A DNA stretch of 64,000 bases. Source: Tubiluchus corallicola. Lineage: Eukaryota; Priapulida; Priapulimorpha; Priapulimorphida; Tubiluchidae. Location: NCBI GenBank assembly GCA_030141605.1, contig JAQGDQ010000158.1, positions 124,001 through 188,000 on the forward strand, read 5' to 3'. Each line of letters starts with the position of its first letter. Position 1 is the stretch's first letter. The notes under the pieces are model-generated. The model saw only the letters and a program-made list of their open reading frames with translations, did no database searches and was not told the DNA's origin. Below are positions 860 to 63,277 of this stretch, one piece after another. The translations under genes were made by a program, and so were the position numbers.

Positions 860-3800
860 ATTTTTGGCGATTTTCTCAATTCCACAAGTAGGACAGCAGA
901 TTTGAGCAGAATCAGTTTCTTTTGCATCAGAGGGAGTGTGTGAAACAGAAATAACAGCAGCTGGAAGTGTTCCACATTGACATCTGGAAAACAAAGATGG
1001 ACGTTACATGCAATCAACGGTATAAATGTAAAACTAATTAGAATAGAATTCAAAAATATGTTTGAAAGATGCAGCAAGAAAACTAAAACGAATAATGCTA
1101 CAAGTGTGAAAATGATAATCAACACTTAGCGCTGTATTTCAGACAGTAATTAATTATTAAATGTTCTTTAAAATTCTTGAAGTATTGAAGATGGTGTCTT
1201 AATTTTAGAATGCCCATTTGCCACATAAAAATACCTTCCATATTTTCCAGCATAACATTATCTGCATTCTCTACTCCATTCTTCAGCGCCTCCAAAAATC
1301 TCTCCCAAATGTTGATGATTGCAGCTTCGCTCTCGCTGTTTAATCGATCTCTCTCCCGCTGTTGCCACAGCACCAGAACCTGAGCCAATAAGCTCAAAGT
1401 GCGGGGGTAAATTTGCAACGGCCAGTCAGCTTTGGACATTAAGCTTACTCCAAGTTGAGTTAAAAGCACATCCTTGCAATAAAATATAGGCGATGAAACA
1501 TCCAAGGAGTAGAGACAGTACAAGCCCCAGATACATAACGAATAATTATAAACAACAAACCATACTGCAGTCCATAAAGTGGGACTCAAACTGCATTTCA
1601 TGACTTGACACAAGTACAAGCATAAGAACCAGTATATCTCAACTGCATTCCTTGAATAACTTTGTAAAACTTGTAACTATTAAAAGAATTACACAGGTTT
1701 TATACTGACTCAAGTGTTACTATTTAAGCTTTACTGAAATCATTTGTAGCTGTTTTATAATCCTACATTTTAATGAAATTCTACAAATACAAAAGTGACA
1801 AAAACTGCTAATTAAAAAAAGAAAAACAATTACTGATATTGAACATTAAATTATTATGAGTGCATGAAACCTCTGTTAATTTTATGTATTCCGGTAATTT
1901 TTTACGCTTTCTCCATAAATCAAGTTATCATCACCAGGTCTGGCAAAACTGCAGAAAACACGACGTACCTGATGAGCCTCAGTCAGGATGTTAGTAGCAA
2001 TGAGGTTATGATTAAACCTGGCTACAGCACAACTGAAGTCTTCATAAACACCGGCTGTAAAAAATGTTGGAATGATTGTTTTTTAAATAAATGAAGCTTT
2101 AAAAAGATTGTTTTTTTGTAATTTTTGTCAAAACCTTCTTCGATATGAAGTAACATTTCTTTAAAGTACGACTCCATGATCATGTGCTTCTACTGTACAG
2201 GTAGTGGTCGACTTACAACCACAATAAGTTCTGGCGGATTGACCATAAGATGAATTGGACGGCGCCTATGATAAATTTATCAAAACAGATAGAGATTTAA
2301 AGTTAATTCGTTTGAAAAAATAGAAGGAAATATGAGTCATAGTTGATTTTATATAATTAATAATTAAGTTGAGGTCGGATCGTAACGTCCAACAGTCGTA
2401 AATTACATAGGTCATAAGTCGATAACTACCTCTATACTTCAAAATATTTGCAGCATTAGTTAGGAAGTACCCAAATATAACTAGAACAAACAGTCTGTAA
2501 TCATCCAAACAAAAAATTTCTTTCACATTTTCTTTTTGAAAATTATAAAATGTCTTCCAATCTTCGTGAGTTTCAGATTTACTTACTGCATGTTTCTCTG
2601 TCTAAATCACGAACAACACTGGCTAAACTAGCCATGTGAGGCTCCCCAAATGATGATCTGAAAAAAACATGCCATAAAAGGTAGGACTAGGATGTGTGTT
2701 CAATGCCACCCATAGCTAACTGTTTAGGAAAATTTGATATTATTAAGATAACTAATAAGTCATGATAGAATAAGTTAGTCCAATAATGAAAAGCTTATGC
2801 AAAAGTTAAACGAAACTGTAGAATAACTCAAGCATAAATAATATACGTCCATCCAACCCACTATTCCTAAACAGTCTAGTCACTATTTAAGCAACTTAAG
2901 CTAACTTAACAGATAAACAAATAAAATAAATAGATAAACAAATAATTAAATAAATAAACAAATAAATAAATGATAAGAATAAATAATAAAAATACAAGTT
3001 ATCACAAATCCGAAGTTTTTGTTGATAATGACATACTAACAGGAAATGTACACCTTGGCAATGATCTTTTGAAGAATGTCAAAATACTGACATTAAAGCT
3101 TACTTGTCGTTCGTAACATGTTCTTTCCTTATTATTTCTTTTACTATATATATATATATATATATAGTATATATATCTCAATTTCAAAATTGCTAATAAA
3201 AACTACACGTTAATGAAATGAAACTTGGTTTTCTTACTCCTACTATTCTAACTTTCCATTGCATTTTTTTATGTCCATGAAACATGTGACTTGTAGTGAG
3301 ATGAATAATGACAAAATCAAAACAGAAGTATAACTCTAATAACTACAATACAATTTTGTAGTATCAGCATAATTGTATCTTACAGAGAAACAATATCTAA
3401 CACAGAGAGCTGAACAAGAATGCTATAAACTTACCTGACATATTCTTTAATTGCGCTGTGGTTTGTATTCAGAAAATGGTGATGCATAAACTGCATGATA
3501 TCCGTTGCTAATGTTATATACTGAAATAAACACAATTAGCGTAAAACGAGTTTCAATTACATTAAAGATATCTAGTAAGTCATAGTAAAGATGTAATTAT
3601 TGAGTAATTATGTACGTCAACTACATTAATGTAACTTAGCAAACGTTTTAATATTTGTCACCTTCAAAACCCTTAAGGTCAACATTATTACAAAATGCTA
3701 ATTTGTTTTTATTTCTTAACAGTATTTGATTATGTTTCAGGAATATCACAAACTCATTGATTAAGTGCCTGTTTGTTTAAAAGCTACTGTAATTCTTGTA

Positions 3801-6800
3801 TCATGTAAGGCTCCTGCATTATTTGAGCGTAACATTTATAATAACTCTTGTATCACGTTAAATATTCTGTTCTTCCGGTGGCTGCCATGTCTGAGGTCTT
3901 ACAGGTTTTTGTGGCAGGCTCCTTCACACATTGTCACGTTGTATGTGTAATACGTTACGTCGAATATTGTCAAAATAAATTGTCTACTACTACTACTAAT
4001 TCGAAAGTAACAGAATGTACCAAATACAGACTCAACAAAAGCCTGACAGCCATAATAATTATCTTAAAATTTCTTACCCCCTCGGGTTCCTGCTTGTCGG
4101 GTAATATTATAGGCGAGTCCCCATGTTGAGTTTTAGTGGATTTACTTTCTGTGCTTGGAGGAGCAACTGTTGAGATGGTCTTCTCTGGTTCGTGAGGAGA
4201 CACAGTTGATTCAAACCACTGCCCAAATATTGGTTCATTATCTTCATCTAAAAATGTTCAACGTACATTGTGTAAACAAAAGCAAAATTCTGTCAACTAT
4301 AAACTGCTGGGAACCATACATTTCAATGTGAGTTAAATGAAATACAAGCTATATGACTATGTCTATACATAACGAAAATCTGCACAAACCATCATCGGCA
4401 CTACTATCGCCATCTGTGCTGCTGAAATCATCTTCATAGTAAGTATTTGAATCAGTTGAACTAGCCGTATCACCATCATCCATGCACTTGTGTTGTTTCT
4501 TCAGCATATACGCCTGTAAGTACACGGTATGTCAATGATTAACCTAGAACTATTTCGTTTGCTATCCAAGTTTGCAAGATTTTTAGAAAATGTTTGGAAT
4601 CACACAATAACTGCATTTATTAAGCATAGCACAAAAAACACTATAACTATACACAGAAACAACAACGATACATGCACAGTGTAATTAACACATTGGGTAA
4701 TTCTCCAAGCTGTCAGTGAGAATTCACAAATATTACAATGTGACACACAGATGTTTTAATAATTAAAATATTTATGTATACAAATGCAGTTACATTAGTC
4801 AAATCACTACTGTAGTTTAAAGTCCATGTATCACCTATACAGATCCTGTAAACGTTTTATACAAGAAATATGTAAAAGATTTGATACATGTAAACAATAT
4901 AGAACAAAAAATTATATGAAAAATAAAAATGCTTATATTACAGATGGAAAATACAATGTTCCAAGCAATTCTGACCAAATTTTCAATAAGTTTTTTCAAA
5001 ATGCAAAGCTAATCGCTTCAAAAATAGTTTAATAAATGATTATATTTGCAATCACCTTTTTGTAACTTGTCGTGAACAAGTTGAAGAGAAAATTCGTCAT
5101 ATTGAAGCCCGACATTAAAAGTTTGATTCTTTGCCAAGCGGTGAAGTTTCCATCAATTGACGATGCATTCGCTGGTGGAAGATCAAGTTCAGCCTGGAGA
5201 TAAAAAAGTTAACAATTTTTATACGCACGTATCCATTAATCTTTTGCTGTTTTGTACTAATATATAAAATGAAAATAAAGAAGACAAAATATAATAATGA
5301 TATTTTAACTTTCAAATGCATTTGAGCCAGATTACTAGTTGCTATTAGGACTAGGGAAGTCCTAAGCAGACAAACTTGTACGGTAAATCAGTATTCCTGT
5401 CGGAACATTTACTGACTGTTGAATACACAGTCAAAAAACTAATTACCCTTCTTCTCTGGACTCATATGAACAGTGAAAAAACTAAACTTCTGTGGACCCA
5501 TATGAACCCTCATATATGTTCCCTTGGCTTAAAGAGGCACAAGTCAACATTTTGCTTAGAATAAATCATAAAATACGAGCAGATAAATTTTCTTCACCCC
5601 ACCCTAAAAGGGACAGATAGAATTCAATGAGGAAAAGGGATTGTTAATGTCCACATTGGAACGAGTCACTAGGAAAACAACTTGCTAAAACTAACTAGGT
5701 GTGCAAAAGTTAAACGCCAAGCTACAGTGTGTTCAATCAGACACAGAAAAACCCAAATGAAAGGTAACTGAATAGAGGAGACGTTTTTTTCTCATCTGCG
5801 AACCTTAGAAGAAAAACATTCTGCATTAAGATCCTCCATCAAGTAACCCAGGAGAGTTATAGCTTTCGATGCCAGTGCCAATGAGAGAACACCCAAAGTC
5901 TGATGTCTGAAAGAAAGAATTATAGTTTCTTCAAAAGTCTCAAAAACTTGCGTGATGTCTTGTTGAACGTAAAAGCAAAATTACACGAGTAGAAAAATTG
6001 TAAGAAACAGATATGTTCAAATATAACATCTAAGTTCATTTTTACCTCATAGACTGAACATGCAGATCTGACAAACTGCCCTTAACAAACGATTGTTTTA
6101 TTAATTAAAATTATTTGTTTAATATTCAAATATTCCTAACACTATTCCTGACCTAAATATTCAAACATTCAGTCTGTTGAAAAAATAAAAGTCAAGGCAG
6201 GTGATTTAATGAGTGATATGTAAAAAGGTGTCCTAATTATTTTTGTTTAAAAAAGTACAACACTATGTAACGAGAACAAATTGCGCAAATGAAAAATTAG
6301 CGAGAAAATAAATGAATGAAAAACAATAAAAGTACATAAAAATTATCAATGTAAAAACTCTCTTTAGTCTTTTGCTACATTTGAATGAGCAACATTTGAA
6401 GACATGATGTAGCGAGCAGGAAGACAACTTTTTTGTAAATTCCACAAATAAGTACTAAAGAAAAAAAACTCTTGAGAATTATTGAACAATGTATAGTTTG
6501 TTGATAAACTTTCCAGCTGTTTCTAGTACAAGATGCACAAAAAATAATGAAACAAAATCACATACATCTTTCCAGCCTTGTTGCTACCAGCAACATCTTT
6601 CTTCATGGGTGAGCCAGGCTTCATCTCATCCTTTCCTTTGGCTCTCTCTACTATGGATGATGGGCAGACAGACAGACTAGCATGCAAACCACGAAGCAAT
6701 CTCCAAGCACCAAGCATGTAGAAATTCTGAAGATTCTGAAAACCAGCATTAACATTTAAATAAAAACAAAAACATTTGGGAATCATAATACAAAACAGAA

Positions 6801-9800
6801 ATAAGCATGAAAATACAGTAACATGGATAATGATAAAAGAAATAATGTTTCATATTGTCAACATCTACAACGTGACTTGTTGGCTAAAGTATTATAACAT
6901 GACGCCAGCTTTACTTACATGTCCACCAGCCCTTGTTGAGTTTTTGATTGAAGCAGCCAAAGTATTATAATTGTCAAGCTAAAAGATGTAAAAGGACAAT
7001 TAACAGCAATCACATTCATGTAACAGTCAATACACAATGTTGTACAATGGTAAGAATCTATCACCAAGAAGTGCTCATGTTCTCATAAATGAAAATGGAC
7101 AATACATAGTCCCAAATGGACTAAGACAATGTAATACAATTAGCACCTTTTGTGGAAATCATAACATGTTATGAAAATTTTAGACGTGGTCACAAAAATG
7201 GAGAACAAGAAAATCACTTAGTAACGCCTAAGGTTATTACGACCGATTCTGCAATACTTTCAACAAGTTACCAAAAAATCAATGTATGCACAGCAAAGAA
7301 AACTTAAACTCCTCATAACGAAACACAATTACTATATGTAACTATATCGATGATCCATACTAACACTTTTCTGGACAATGGTCAGTGCATGTTGGTCACT
7401 CTCCGCATCATCCTTCACAGCACCACTGACTCCTTTAATCTGCGCTGAGGCAGCTACAGTCAGGATGTTGTTGCTAGCGGCAACAGCAAGTGATGCATTT
7501 AGGCCAGCCGTAACCACGGAAACAATTTTATCCAAGCGTTTGGTTGTGAGTGGTTCTAAGACGGGAAGGCTGAGAACTCTCCATACAACATGTATGTCAC
7601 TTACTATATGCTGTAGGCTGAAATGAATTTAATAATTTAAGCACGATGCCTCAAAATGCTAGAGAGCTGAGAATTTTTTCTCTACTTTGTATATAAATTT
7701 ACTAAAGATAAACCAAAAACAATTGACACTTACAAACTAATTTTTGCTAAGAACATCTTTCAGAGAAATTCATATTCTCATCGCATCCATAGAAATGAAG
7801 CAACTAGATATTGGTACTGACTGTATATAATTTATGTATGCATTAATTTTATTTTATTCACTTTACTCATTTATTTTGTTTTACATTTACAAGTTCTAAA
7901 TTTTAAAAATCTGTGCCGTTTACAGAAAAAGATTAAATAACCATTAAACATTTCAGGATGGATAAAAGATGTAATGCAATAAGACTGAAGGAGGAAATTT
8001 TTTAATAAGAAATAGTCAAGATCTATAGCATTGATAAATTGCTAAAGAAAATTGCAGTAATTGGCCTAGGTTTACAATTTAAAATACAGAGATCTGAAAT
8101 GAATAAAATTTATAAAATAAAATTAACATCCCCATAAACACACTAGAATCATACTAATGCATAGTTTTTCTTTTCAATTTTATGAACTTGGTGACAATAT
8201 CAAGCACAAAAACATCTATTTTTGAACTTTCTTAGCAAAAAATTTGTGGATAAGCTAATTTGTTTGTAGTTTAACTTGTTAAATTTATACACAAATTGGG
8301 CAAAAATTCTCCTATCTCTATAGCACAAAGGGCTTACTTTTTCGTGTCTACCCTGTATTTATATACACACAGTGTAATATTCAGATTTCTTACAATGACA
8401 CAACAGACATTTGGCAAACATGTTAAATATGATAGCTAGCAAAGCATGAACCAAACAACTGAGAAACAACATAACATAATGTGCCACTTTTCAAAGTCAA
8501 GACATTTCAAATTTAGTAAAGCTTCTGTGAGATTTTCTAATTTGATACCTGTTTCTAACATTCATAGCATCACTGAGAGTAGCAGGTAACACCGGTTCCA
8601 ATTTCATGTATTTTGTTAAATAAGTCAAGTTAGTGCACGTGTCCAGCAAAACATTGCTAGCATCAAGCTGTTGCAACACAACACCTATGCTGTCAACAAA
8701 CTGACTCTGTAAAACAAATGAAATAGAAAGTATTGAAAAAAATAAATAAATCTAGTAAATGGCAAATAATCTTTATTGTCATTCAGCAACCCTCAAATGA
8801 ATAACAAATAATGTTGAGTCACTGTTGTACATTTTAGTAATCCATGCCTAGGTCTCTGTATGTCAATAACTAACTTATAGCAAACCTAATATACACAGTT
8901 TAGGAATAAGATGGTCAATCACAGAAACATAGCCTCAAGAAATAGTCACTAACTTGTAACTGTATTGTTAAGCTGCAACATGTTCAAAATCAAGCCATAA
9001 AAGTTGCTATCAAAATGGGAGATTCTAGGTTTTGAATCCCTGAAAATTCTGTTCTACTAACATCCAATTCAACATAGAATTAAATTTAAACAGGTAGTTA
9101 TACTGTAATGTCTTCATGACGTAGCTGCTCAATACCTATATGTAATTGTACGTTAAACAAGCATTCGTATAGAAGATCGGCTTCTTGTTCTGAAAATCGT
9201 GTTTTTCTGAATGAGTCATTTTATAGATGTAAAACTTTTGCAGATCAATCATTTTTCATTGCAAGCCCAAAAGAATGAAACCTCCTTCCAGATGCTACTT
9301 GTAGCTAAGACCCTTAATCAAGTTTTAGGAAAAAAATGAATTCATCTGTATTTACCTTTTAATTAAAAATTCATTGTCATTTTACTAGTGTGGTCAATTT
9401 GCATTTAATGTATGTACTATATAGAATCACATTTGTTTTTATTTTGTGCAGCCACCTGTGTTTAATGTACCACTGAGTATGTAACCTAGGAATGGCCGTG
9501 TTAAGTGTACTAATAATAATAATTTACTACTTAAGTACTTAAATTACAGCCATACTAACAAAGTCACATACTCCTTCTAAATAACAAACAAAATATGCTG
9601 ATAACAAAACCTGTACTCTTTCTGGCACACCACTAAAGAGACATTACAAAATAATTAATGTGATAAGAAATGTGCTCTTAAGAAAATGTAATTTTCCTAT
9701 TCATTTCTTATCAATGTCAGGTATTAACATTAAGAAACAAAACCGCTAAAGATATTTAAAACTGACTTATTGCAATGAACAAAAAATTACTGCTCATTAG

Positions 9801-15625: not shown

Positions 15626-18600
15626 CTAATCTAACTTAGAAATTATAGAATTTATGTCTTTAGTGTTTTCTAGACATCTCCAAGACAGCTTGAACACCTT
15701 GACAATTTCTTGAAATATTTCCTCATCGTAAACTGATCTTGCCGTATTTGATAGGTCAAACGGTTCTGAAACAAAGAGATGTTTCAAAATATGTAGCCAT
15801 GAAGCAGTGAGGTTAGGTCACCGGGACAGCAATGAATTCTGTATTTTACTAAGCAAACTACTGAGCTTACTGGCTCAGATAGGAAATAGTTAATTGCCAT
15901 TGTTATCCAGTATGCCCAGAATATCATAACTCAAAACAATTCAAATAAAATTAGTAACAGAATATTTAACAGGACAAAAAAAATCCTAAACTCAACAGTA
16001 AAGCTCTGCACAAAAGCTGCTGCAGCCAAATTAAAATTGAGGAAGGTTCCTGGAATGCTTCAAAATCATTACTTTTCTATATAGAACGTTTTATCCAATT
16101 TTGTACCAAATTTACTAAGGTAAACATATGCAAATGTGCATCACACAAAAAAATCCATGAAAATCAAAATATCTTAAACAAGTGATAGGGATTGTGTAAC
16201 ACAGCTTGTAAGGCAAAGATTGGAGGAAGACAGTAGAAAAAATATGCTTGTGAAACTACATTAAACATTCTGTTAGTAAAAACAAAAATGCATAAGAAGA
16301 TACCTTCTATACATAGATACTTCCACTGAGTTGGTGGATTGTCCCTACAAGACCTTTGCTTAATCACAACATGTCGAGGCAATCGGACTCCAGTTCGCAC
16401 GGAAATGCAGTCTTTATCATAACTGTGATGAAGAAGAAAACAGATTGATGGCAAAAAATGTTATGAAAATTTTCCAAGCTCTACAGGTGTATTTTACGAC
16501 AATTCATTCTACAATTTTGCATATAACAAAAAAAGACTACTTAAAATAATGATCATTAGACATAAAAGCCAATATATAGCCGCTAGTACAGGTACAGTAG
16601 GCATTGCCTAATAAACTGCCTAAGACAATCATGTTTTGCCCATCAATAACTGAATCAATTGGCCAAAGTGATTGAACAAAGTTAGCCAATAAATATTGGT
16701 AAATCTAATATTGAACTGGTATTTATTGCTGCTAATTGACAAGTTAACCAGCTGCTAAGTTAAAAAATTACAAAGATTTGTTTTGGCTTCACAGTTTCAC
16801 AAATAAGGAAGTTGAAAAATTCTTTCACTGGAATGAAGCCCAAAATCAGTTTAAGTGCAGACTGCTGAGGATAAATACACATGATGTGTGAGACGACTGA
16901 TGAAAAAACATAACAGAAGCACAAAGGCAACGCAGACGTTTTATCACATACGACTGCCCTACCTAAGACATGAAGCAAAAATATTGAGTCGGTAACGCAT
17001 AATCTTTAAACACTGTTACTGATTGATTATAGCATGTATAAGTCCATATATTTTGCACAGTGCCCAGGAACCTCGTGTGTCTAGACCAATTAAGCAAATG
17101 ATTCAATCAACTAACAAAAATAAACAACAGTTATTGTAAAAGTAACATATTACTTACTTGAAAACATTAGCATAATAATTTAAAAATCCTATAAATAATT
17201 GTCCTAACGAATGATTGTTATTGGACCTCCATCGTGGTGGATTTTCATTCAATGCAAGTGTTCTTACATCACTGCTATTGCTGAACTTGCCCTAAGTCGA
17301 TTAATCACCATTTAAACAAAATAGCTAATACGAAATATTTAAAAGTAAGTGGGACATTTCTTTTACCATAAAATGCTACATTGTAAATAAGTTAAATGAA
17401 AAAAGTGTAACAAAATATTAAGTTATGCACTCATCTAAATCAACCAATATGTCGGGAATTAAAACAAAATGAATGAAATTAGCAAACATATTAACCACTT
17501 TTCTAACACAAATATGCTATGCTAGGAAGAAAGACAAAAAAGATAGTACACATAAATAGCTTCTTATATGTTTCTCATGAGTTTTTCTGATTTATCCTAC
17601 TTTCTTGACATTTTCTTGTTTAATCATTACATTTACATTTAAACAAAATTTAACTGAACAAAACAGATGGTGTTACCCGACCAATATCACCACTAATTTT
17701 TTGGTATGTGACCTGGATAGAATTGCCTACCTAAGGCAATATAAAACAAACAAACAAACAAAATGTTTATGTAGCCTACACTAGAGCAGCTATAAAAGTA
17801 TTAACTGGTAATATTTTGTAAAATTATTACATCTGAAGAAAACACATATTATACATATAAATCCATACATAAATACATATACCTGTAGAATTAATACATA
17901 GACTTATATTTGAATTTGCATTTTTTTAAAGAAAAGAAATGAAACCAGTGATTAAATGGACTAAATATATCGGTAAAATTCTTCATAACTTACGGGCAAT
18001 AACTTGTGCAAACATGGCAATACTGGAGGACTACATCCACACTGCAAGTAATGTATCACCATCAACTGCAGTGAATAACTAGAAATTGTTCTCTGGTTGG
18101 CATCATTAATATTGTGCTCTTTGGCCCAGCGCTTCACAATGACAACAAGCGGACAAACTCGTTCATCCACTAGAAAATGAAATTTCTGTTAATTACACTG
18201 TAGCAACAAAAAACCGAAGCAACTGCAAACATGTGTACAATCTCAGCTGCACTACGTGATACACAATTAAATTCTGGCTTAATTTAGTTATCAGTAAGTT
18301 ACATCTGTTTGTTCATAGACCTGTCAATATTCATCCACAGAGAGCAGGGTAACGTAGTTTGTTAAGGCAGGCTTAGATCAAACTTATGACGCAAAGCAAC
18401 TGAAGACTCAGCATTTGGCTGCAACTGGTAGCCTACACTAATTCCATGCATATCCAGTCGACATAAGCAAGCTTACAATGCAACTCGGTTCTAGCACGTT
18501 GCTCATGTTCTACTCACGGCATACAGTATCCACCCAGTTTCAACCTGAGTATTGTTCTACAATAATTGCGATCTGGCCAGAAATTTTTTTCATTCGTGTA

Positions 18601-58270: not shown

Positions 58271-59812
<1,542 letters not shown>

Positions 59813-62101
59813 TCATGGAATGTTGCTTGAACTTCCTGCTGTGAAGTTGTGCTTTTGCTGTGTCATCTTAGGCTTGTGTTTAGAACTTTTCTGATGTGCT
59901 CTAAGACCAGCTAATTGTGAGTAGGCACTTTGGCAGACAAGACACTTGTATGGACGTTCACCTAGAAAAGAAATTTTAGTAAATTGTTTAACTGTTTACT
60001 AATTTGTGCCATATTTTTGTAACATGTTTATAAAAGTCATTGTTATATTGATCACGATGCCGAGTATTAATAATAAACTGATAAAAATGTGAATTTTGTG
60101 AAGTCTGTGTTTTCATTTTGAAGATAAAGTTCACTGACAATTTTATGTGTATTTTACATAGTTAAAAATTGTTTTAGCAAGCTGAATTTGAGTACCAGTT
60201 ATTTTCAATTAAAATGAATGAAAACAGAAGATGAAGATCAAATATATCAAAAAAACTTTCCATACAAACTTATATTTCTTAACGCTACCCTTCCTTGTTT
60301 GAAAGACTTATGTAACTGGAAAAGAAAATTCTTCATAATTTCAATTGTTCATACCTATTTGTAAACCATCGGTGTATCACCATCCCAGTGTGCACCACTG
60401 GCTTACCTAAAGCATATTATTGATCTTTTTGACAATATAAACTAATTTAAACATTTGCTTGGTTAGGCAAGTGCTCTATGAATTACTCTAATTATTTTTC
60501 AAACTTCACACAATGTTATTATATAAACTTGTTTCAGTTCACTTACCGTTAATATGACTGCACTTAACAGTTATCGTGAGAGCTTAAATTTACAAATTTC
60601 ATACAGTGCTACAGCTAACTCAAGCTCTGTATGCAATAAGACAGCATGTAATTTTTTTTAATTAAGTTTTATTTATGAACAGTGTTTTCTTGTAATTTAA
60701 ACGTCGAACCTCCATCAATTTGTAATTCTCTCTTTAAGTTGTTTTTTGTTTGTTGTGGCATTTATTAAGTTCAGCTTTTAAGAGCATCGGTTACCTGTGT
60801 GCAAACGAGTGTGATTTCGTAGGTTACCTGTGTGCAAACGAGTGTGATTTCGCAGGTTACCTGTGTGCAAACGAGTGTGATTTTGCAGGTTACCTGTGTG
60901 CAAACGAGTGTGATTTCGCAGGTTACCTGTGTGCAAACGAGTGTGATTTCGCAGGTTACCTGTGTGTAAACGAGTGTGATTTCGCAGGTTACCTGTGTGC
61001 AAACGAGTGTGATTTCGCAGGTTACCTGTGTGCAAACGAGTGTGATTTCGCAGGTTACCTGTGTGTAAACGAGTGTGATTTCGCAGGTTACCTGTGTGTA
61101 AACGAGTGTGATTTCGCAGGTTACCTGTGTGTAAACGAGTGTGATTTCGCAGGTTACCTGTGTGTAAACGAGTGTGATTTCGCAGGTTACCTGTGTGCAA
61201 ACGAGTGTGATTTCGCAGGTTACCTGTGTGTAAACGAGTGTGATTTCGCAGGTTACCTGTGTGCAAACGAGTGTGATTTCGCAGGTTACCTGTGTGCAAA
61301 CGAGTGTGATTTCGCAGGTTACCTGTGTGCAAACGAGTGTGATTTCGCAGGTTACCTGTGTGCAAACGAGTGTGATTTCGCAGGTTACCTGTGTGCAAAC
61401 GAGTGTGATTTCGCAGGTTACCTGTGTAAACGAGTGATTTCGGTATTCAAACGAGTGTGATTTCGCAGGTTACCTGTGTGCAAACGAGTGTGATTTCGCA
61501 GGTTACCTGTGTGCAAACGAGTGTGATTTCGCAGGTTACCTGTGTGCAAACGAGTGTGATTTCGCAGGTTACCTGTGTGCAAACGAGTGTGATTTCGCAG
61601 GTTACCTGTGTGCAAACGAGTGTGATTTCGCAGGTTACCTGTGTGCAAACGAGTGTGATTTCGCAGGTTACCTGTGTGCAAACGAGTGTGATTTCGCAGG
61701 TTACCTGTGTGCAAACGAGTGTGATTTCGCAGGTTACCTGTGTGCAAACGAGTGTGATTTCGCAGGTTACCTGTGTGCAAACGAGTGTGATTTCGCAGGT
61801 TACCTGTGTGCAAACGAGTGTGATTTCGCAGGTTACCTGTGTGCAAACGAGTGTGATTTCGCAGGTTACCTGTGTGCAAACGAGTGTGATTTCGCAGGTT
61901 ACCTGTGTGCAAACGAGTGTGATTTCGCAGCGTTGATGACTGACTGAAGCTGCGCTGACAGTACATACAGATGAACGGTTTCTCCATGGTGTGGATTCTC
62001 ATATGTGACCTCAGGTTACTCTTGGAGTTGAAGCCACGTCGACATACTGTGCACCTCATTTTTGACCCGGCTGTTGGACAAGTTGATTCTGAAAGTGTCA
62101 T
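59813..62101 (-). CDS. Small C2H2 zinc-finger protein; intron starts inside a 33-bp minisatellite
   Basis: Two exons are supported: 61903-62101 and 59813-59961 (stop TGA 59815-59813), joined in phase 1 to about 115 aa. Finger 1: C17-x2-C20-x12-H33-x3-H37. Finger 2: C45-x2-C48-x12-H61-x3-H65. The splice rebuilds the standard linker HTGERPYKC and a third finger C73-x2-C76-x12-H89-x5-H95. Nucleic-acid binding in the nucleus is the usual role (family knowledge). ATG at 62101 has an in-frame TAA nine codons upstream; alternatively CTTTCAG at 62095-62089 is an acceptor and earlier exons exist. The donor used, CACACAG before GTAAC (61902-61901), is the first of ~33 copies of itself in the intron. 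Reading through the first unit block instead adds about 14 copies of 11 residues before a stop at 61420-61418. Confidence 0.75.
60248..60705 (+). repeat. Dispersed repeat family R1, copy 2
   Basis: Direct-orientation partner of 37147-37607. It lies inside the zinc-finger gene's intron, just 3' (in gene sense) of the minisatellite. Confidence 0.75.
60790..61930 (-). repeat. 33-bp minisatellite copied from a zinc-finger exon/donor
   Basis: Nineteen intact units (60790-61416), two damaged partial units (61417-61468) and fourteen identical units (61469-61930). In gene sense each unit codes [11 protein letters not shown], the helix and linker of finger 2, and contains CACACAG then GTAAC. Phased from that junction, each unit starts GTAAC and ends CACACAG. 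Variants are few: G-to-A in six units of the left block, and single changes in units 1 and 3. Confidence 0.98.
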
Positions 62102-63277
62102 CAATGCTGCATGTAGTAGATCTTAAACAAAATCTTGCTTTTACAACTTTGACGTAGTACTCTTCAGTTGCTTTCCATTATTTTTCATTTTTGTGTTCCA
62201 CTACACACTACAAGAATTAGCTCTAGCAGTTTAGTCCACGCTATTAACTTCATCCATCCATAATATAACTGTAGTTGGTTGCTGTTTAGACATTGCCATT
62301 AAGATAAGCTTGTTAAATAAACATATAACACCGTGCCACAGAATCAGTTTAACTTGATTCAACTCGCTAGGCTGTTTAGAGGTAGTCTGAACTTAAATGT
62401 ACATGCTTGAGCTTGTAAAACGTGTTACCCATGTCAAATCAACTTTGGGAAGCCATTGTTTTATTTCTCGCACACTTTGGAACATATTTATTTAAGTGAT
62501 ACATAAATGAAACTATGTCATACAAAAATGATTCATAAAATTTATGAAATTTGAAATTGCACAAACTTTATATTTGTTTCCAAAATTCATTAAGAAGCAA
62601 GAACTGTTTGTGTAGGTATTCTTTATATTACTTGTATTTTATACATAGTTTAAAATCTCAGCATGCTGAACAATAAAATACATTTGAAATTTCAGATGCC
62701 AAAAAAATTAATTCACTGTATAAAAAATACAATCTATACAAATGAGTTTTAAAATTTCATTGAAAGGAATCTAATGAGTTTAGTAAGTGATTATTTCATG
62801 TTTACATATTTTATTTCTTAGAGGAAACAAGCTGCGTAGCTAACAGGGGGCGGTGGAGGCAGTCCCGCCCTGGACAGTACATTTCAGTGGGCGTCACTTT
62901 GATGCAGTGCACTGAAAAGGTTGATTCTGACCGAACAGTAGAAAGACAAAACAATTGATACAATTTAACTTTCCCGCCACATACGACGCTTCCTATGGAA
63001 GATGATAATTAGCAGTGTAATATCTTTGTAATATTTGTAATAGTATGCAATGCAATACTATTACTGTCAAGAAAGGACTGCATCCTTAAATTAAATGTCA
63101 GATATTTTTCCAGAATTCCCATCCATGTCCTGATATTGATAAGTTTACATTTTTAAACAAAAGTGGAGACGTGGAAGCTAAGAAATATTGATTAACCATG
63201 TAGATAAAATTTCAGCAATACGCGATTCTAAATTAAGAGTTACGAATTAATTTTGCTAATGTATTCAATCAGCACTA

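Follow-up and report, generated by a model that had tools for sequence, protein, structure and literature searches.

The window, that is the whole 64-kb stretch of DNA analyzed here, carries on its minus strand a C2H2 zinc-finger gene with a 33-bp minisatellite at the donor end of its penultimate exon. The features of this gene are as follows (a slash in a motif marks the splice junction).

61903..62122, minus strand: C2H2 zinc-finger exon (Pfam, translation); the interval is an upper bound, given by the open frame from 62122
61903..61930, minus strand: exonic repeat copy, the last 28 nt of the exon, 28/28 identical to the consensus
60795..61902, minus strand: minisatellite, 33 intervals between 34 CAG/GTAACC donors (TRF, phased sequence)
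61422..61473, minus strand: irregular, frame-shifting 52-bp unit near the middle of the array, with a TAA after it at 61420-61418
60793..60794, minus strand: final copy of the donor GT, with unique intron sequence after it
59962..60794, minus strand: remainder of the intron on its 3' side, unique in sequence, with the predicted acceptor TTTCTTTTCTAG at 59962-59973
59813..59961, minus strand: last coding exon, with the third finger and the C-terminus (translation)

The exon at 61903..62122 encodes two fingers, CTVC..H and CMYC..H, which are matched by Pfam zf-C2H2 in two stretches (6.5e-09), and the last exon encodes a third one whose match to the same family (0.0035) lies below the cut-off. 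The exon-intron boundary is predicted from the linker between fingers. Joining the exon end at 61903 to the last exon (59961-59813) re-forms the linker HTGERPYKC, as an earlier note on this DNA had claimed, and translation of the joined exons bears this out. An AATAAA is found downstream of the last exon, at 59784. A motif scan of the next 30 kb upstream revealed no finger close to the zinc-finger exon and flagged one possible finger, FTCSYCFPGVGDATQFNQVHHQVTKH, 29.5 kb upstream of it (L011, about 7584), on the minus strand like the gene. At least 150 zf-C2H2 matches were scored in the genome, many of them in tandem clusters, and the best-scoring protein match elsewhere is 50% identical (best among the 150 of 1567 candidates that were scored). 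Among the finger matches listed, most cross this linker without an intron; they are general C2H2 genes, at best candidate orthologues of ours. The window also contains an exon of a GLD2-type poly(A) RNA polymerase at 17961-18188 on the minus strand (PDB 6lbj, 2.5e-17). Searches of the 64 kb with Rfam, at the gathering threshold, and with a tRNA scan gave no match.

The minisatellite was reported by TRF at 60789-61930, with 35.0 copies, 96% matches and a score of 2130. When phased at the junction, it displays 34 GGTAAC sites from 61902 to 60794, and the unit is made of the last 28 bases of the exon and the first 5 of the intron. Twenty-four of the 33 intervals between these sites are consensus, six carry TTG>TTA, one CGA>CAA and one CTG>CTA, and the last is the irregular 52-bp unit at 61473. 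The latter corresponds to 66 bases minus 14 and requires three gaps when aligned to two consensus units. The earlier note, which had described a minisatellite multiplying a donor about 33 times, was thus right on this point. It had also stated that every unit reads GT...AG; all 34 boundaries do, but they are not independent observations, since any repeat of a GT/AG junction phased at that junction reads so. The 13 units proximal to the exon are identical and devoid of variants, whereas variants are found in 9/20 distal units (P 0.004 under an assumption of independent units, which does not hold). The exon-side edge of the array is not divergent, and the variants are confined to the distal 20 units. 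The array sequence was found at one place only in the genome, in one haplotype, and an exact search of viral contigs for the 33-bp unit gave no match.

All 34 sites read CAG/GTAACC and pair at -8.0 kcal/mol each with the 5' end of U1, whose sequence we assumed. Of the 127 GTs that lie from 62122 to 59962, they occupy ranks 3-36 in U1 pairing, behind two sites at 60546 and 60406 on the minus strand (ACG/GTAAGTGA and TAG/GTAAGCCA), which belong to the unique intron sequence past the array. Since the 34 donors are equal in U1 pairing, the site itself does not dictate the use of the exon-proximal one. On its acceptor side, the unit is 0.65 pyrimidine, a value reached by 16% of the AGs of the window, and the predicted true acceptor is 0.71 pyrimidine, with one yUnAy branch-like match 19 nt away. 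No yUnAy match was found in the 33-bp unit, which makes it weaker as an acceptor.

When donors 1-14 are joined to the last exon, the product is open down to the natural stop, whereas with donors 15-34 (20/34) it hits the TAA at 61420-61418, the irregular unit having shifted the frame. The statement of the earlier note that splicing between units never changes the frame is thus contradicted, and its description of each unit as being in frame holds for donors 1-14 and fails for donors 15-34. This frame break is itself conditional on the assembly, because the irregular unit could be an assembly seam. Reading through the whole array in the exiting frame ends at GNRCS-stop, just past the array. Four of the six frames of the unit are open. 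Among 20000 random units with its composition, four was also the most frequent number of open frames, so that the open finger frame of the unit means little. Variable proteins with half-fingers, translated from donors 2-14, are possible. As units 1-13 are identical, the use of a downstream donor and splicing from unit to unit would yield the same mRNA. To our knowledge, all animal introns are longer than 33 nt, so that units could be removed only two or more at a time.

We compared the array with the rest of its own assembly (343,548,820 bases), in which the window is contig C1792:124001-188000. Triples of CAGGTRAG with gaps of 8-38 were matched 585+610 (1195) times, against 74+22 (96) for the reversed motif, and triples of CAGGTGAG with gaps of 8-40 were matched 180+210 times, against 12+32 for its reverse. 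A permuted control motif, GACTGRAG, gave 188+42 triples and its reverse 5+67. Single CAGGTRAG sites amount to 11526+11650 (23176) and reversed ones to 4777+4698 (9475); per single site, a triple thus starts about five times as often for the donor motif (1195/23176) as for the reversed one (96/9475). These triple counts are matches and not arrays, and long arrays weigh heavily in them. Among the matches listed, we recognized at least 7 arrays for CAGGTRAG and at least 13 for CAGGTGAG, one being shared, and at least 5 for the permuted control.

Nineteen arrays were examined: that of the window, those of the 7/7 CAGGTRAG places and those of 11/12 further CAGGTGAG places among the matches listed. 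Their units range from 17 to 46 bp, and the G+C content of the 18 loci outside the window is 0.33-0.49 (at most 0.434 in 16/18), mostly below that of amphioxus, a comparison that carries no weight as a test. Ten of the 19 arrays start where an open frame, read here as an exon, ends, and the nine others have no assigned exon end. An open frame was taken as an exon when it had 48 codons or more; for L058, 30 codons were accepted along with Pfam support. A 48-codon open run in one of three frames has a chance of about 0.1 in random DNA of this composition. The 18 loci are the following.

L058, 33-bp unit: phosducin-like gene (Pfam Phosducin 5e-07, for a two-exon peptide, with most of the match in the second exon)
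L061, 24-bp unit: open frame and donor alone
L062, 28-bp unit: IRP1 gene (Pfam Aconitase 2.6e-23)
L064, 34-bp unit: SLC35F gene (Pfam 7.6e-16)
L067, 39-bp unit: axonemal dynein heavy chain gene (Pfam DHC_N2 2.9e-08)
L069, 39-bp unit: laminin-G-like, Pfam match below cut-off
L070, 39-bp unit: maestro-like, Pfam match below cut-off
L072, 31-bp unit: open frame and donor alone
L073, 46-bp unit: open frame and donor alone
L059, 35-bp unit: no exon end assigned, short exon possible
L060, L065 and L066, 30-, 29- and 24-bp units: no exon end assigned
L068, L071 and L074, 38-, 27- and 31-bp units: no exon end assigned
L075, 17/34-bp satellite: no exon end assigned
L063, 33-bp unit at 3774-4073: donor-bearing array within an intron of a gene taken to be Miro-like, about 500 nt from the exon

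Protein-family support is above the cut-off for five of the ten exons, in the zinc-finger, IRP1, SLC35F, dynein heavy chain and phosducin-like genes. The phenomenon thus recurs in at least four other Pfam-supported genes, one of which is spanned by exons on both sides of its array: the IRP1 exons flanking the repeat align to PDB 2b3x in one stretch (1.4e-34). In the phosducin-like gene, the next exon also lies within the locus. Pfam searches with the peptides of L061, L072 and L073 gave no match, nor did PDB searches with three of the exon-abutting peptides, and with three peptides the prokaryote library NCBIfam returned none over the cut-off.

Several of these loci deserve a word of their own. 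In the SLC35F gene, about 82 units of 34 bp, each CAG/GTAAG, stand at the exon end (4536-7347 of L064), and the whole L075 locus contains 77 CAGGTRAG sites in 1.7 kb. In L063, whose host gene we take to be Miro, the donor motif is repeated away from an exon end. L061 also contains a longer tandem array at 2667-3907, whose period was judged by eye at about 95 or 190 bp, and, at 8003-8999, NCTETMSNGTEQY repeats in an open frame of 332 codons. Translated fragments (IPSFWKTSSAIFVN..., LVGRPSLCLHHVHQ...) recur in L059, L061 and L062 and look like a shared dispersed repeat.

Units divisible by three account for 6/10 of the exon-abutting arrays and for 10/19 overall, where one third would be expected by chance (P about 0.08 and 0.06); this excess is a weak hint of selection on the frame. 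Units of 28, 31, 34 and 46 bp are present among the ten, and with these the frame would often be broken if downstream donors were freely used. In the conserved IRP1 and SLC35F genes, whose units are 28 and 34 bp long, free use of downstream donors would break it two times in three, which suggests that either the first donor is dominant or the other products are disposed of.

We roughly estimated how many such arrays would be expected without any preference for donors from 9 arrays of 16-46 bp found in 176,734 bases of loci that were not chosen for donor arrays, a sample in which zinc-finger loci are included, as is the window, although the latter was selected for its array. The expectation is about 29 arrays, with Poisson bounds of 13 to 55, and by extrapolation from the matches listed about 100 CAGGTRAG arrays would be present in the genome. 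Donor arrays would thus exceed the expectation by a factor of some two to eight, with a central value of about three to four, a figure that is uncertain. Comparison with the other loci suggests a mutational tendency that recurs in this genome, also in conserved genes whose units are not divisible by three. It is possible, although we would not count on it, that a process of this lineage preferentially turns 5' splice sites into minisatellites, giving about 100 CAGGTRAG arrays at about three to four times the rate of random birth, each of them a standing set of alternative donors.

The closest parallel is found in amphioxus, where the available parts of two papers describe so-called mirages, minisatellite-like repeats across the exon-intron boundary in the Adh3, globin, TnC and PGBD5 genes, with units of 10-72 bp in Adh3 and AG/GT in many units, and report that regular splicing is intact (PMC3087553, PMC3902484). 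Our array likewise crosses the boundary, which is predicted, with 28 exonic and 5 intronic nucleotides per unit, repeats the splice signal at 34/34 sites as CAG/GTAACC, and has counterparts in several genes of one genome. It differs from the mirages by its 34 near-identical units and by a finger frame kept for 14 donors. The original description of mirages is reportedly that of Canestro 2002. A minisatellite with multiple splice donor sites and a 12-bp unit was reportedly described in the IFI6 gene by Turri 1995 (NAR). As with our array, an exon of this gene, also known as 6-16, ends in tandem repeats that carry a donor and thereby provides several donors, a few of which are used according to the available text of PMC4526556; the gene and the unit are however unrelated, and donor use is reported for IFI6, whereas the zinc-finger array is known from its sequence alone. 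The available part of PMC2812944 links human repeats at exon-intron boundaries to new introns; those repeats share with our array a tandem duplication crossing an exon-intron border, but a new intron arises there, whereas in the zinc-finger gene an existing intron is lengthened. The minisatellites of earthworm metallothionein were discarded as relatives since the text available places them in the first intron, and PMC3188502 was set aside as a source on mirages, the word appearing in its available part only in a cited title and the matter being another one. Among the literature matches listed, we found no genome-wide class of donor minisatellites outside amphioxus.

One would wonder whether the array could have a function of its own. 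In human UBC and VCX3A, the available part of PMC10809524 describes dual-specific splice sites in tandem repeats; the UBC monomers are coding and 228 nt long, their splicing was demonstrated by RT-PCR, and introns that are multiples of the repeat unit are in 8.4-fold excess. By analogy, each unit of the zinc-finger array would act as both donor and acceptor, and the gene would produce a stochastic set of proteins with 0-13 extra half-fingers of 11 residues. The AG/GT found at every unit boundary, a unit of 11 codons, the 13 invariant units before the frame break, which leave donors 1-14 in frame, and an acceptor side as rich in pyrimidines as stated above would suit this hypothesis as much as the UBC precedent does. 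However, our units are 33 nt long, mostly intronic and devoid of a branch-site match, the frame is lost after donor 14, for 20/34 donors, unit lengths that are no multiple of three are seen in the related arrays of conserved genes, and the open frames of the unit are as many as in random units. We thus regard this function as unlikely. An assembly or sequencing artefact in the unit number or in the irregular unit seems very unlikely: one badly damaged unit with three gaps, near the middle of near-perfect ones, does resemble a seam or a poorly read stretch, but read errors cannot produce the array as such, variants are shared among distal units, and similar arrays are found on other contigs.

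The earlier note had put forward two readings, a live case of intron gain, by tandem duplication of an exon segment containing AGGT, or a neutral extension of the intron. The former might be suggested by the AG/GT present at both ends of the intron (the donor is GTAACC and exon 3 starts with GTGAAC) and by the intronless linker of most of the finger matches listed. These matches are however general C2H2 genes (the best-scoring one, among 150 of 1567, being half identical), and the last 833 bases of the intron are unique and contain the acceptor. Local alignments of the exon ends with the opposite intron ends, compared with shuffled sequences, gave no support either: no resemblance was detected between the last exon and the intron after the array (96/200 shuffles score as high), between the exon and the 3' end of the intron (167/200) or between the start of exon 3 and the start of the intron (169/200). 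The two ends of the intron thus show no sign of being copies of one exon segment, and we consider intron gain in progress as extremely improbable. The intron has its own 3' part and its own acceptor, and the other reading, a neutral extension, is the better supported one.

The anatomy of the array, its 34 donors, the frame break and the recurrence of such arrays at several coding exon ends are direct observations. We consider it likely that the array is a mirage-type minisatellite, mostly neutral, whose exon-proximal donor is probably dominant. The junction between units needs a single shared base, C, between the exon and the intron flank. We propose that a 33-bp stretch across the exon-intron junction of the zinc-finger gene would have been duplicated, this one base being sufficient, and that the repeat would have grown to about 34 units, each with the same donor, presumably by slippage or unequal exchange. 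With the first donor in use, the added DNA would leave as intron. The array could be tolerated at a coding exon because every unit carries a donor, so that exon-proximal use removes whatever has been added. The exon-proximal donor would then be the dominant one and the array would be nearly neutral, while an occasional leak to donors 2-14 might add 11 residues, or a multiple of 11, to the stretch that separates fingers 2 and 3. Against this reading weigh the equal pairing of all donors with U1, the slight excess of units divisible by three, the lack of variants in the 13 proximal units and the nine arrays with no assigned exon end. Given its likeness to the amphioxus mirages and its recurrence in the genome, the array probably does little more than lengthen the intron silently, without making the host a gene of a new kind.

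Mirages, which the available parts of PMC3087553 and PMC3902484 describe for amphioxus only, may be commoner than this. Identical donors within one intron provide a natural test of the choice that the spliceosome makes when 5' splice sites do not differ in strength. The genome-wide set, with units (17 to 46 bp in the arrays examined) that are divisible by three or not, could serve to find out whether downstream donors ever function and whether they are visible to selection. If a targeted process were indeed at work, each array would be a set of alternative donors that splicing must either ignore or use.
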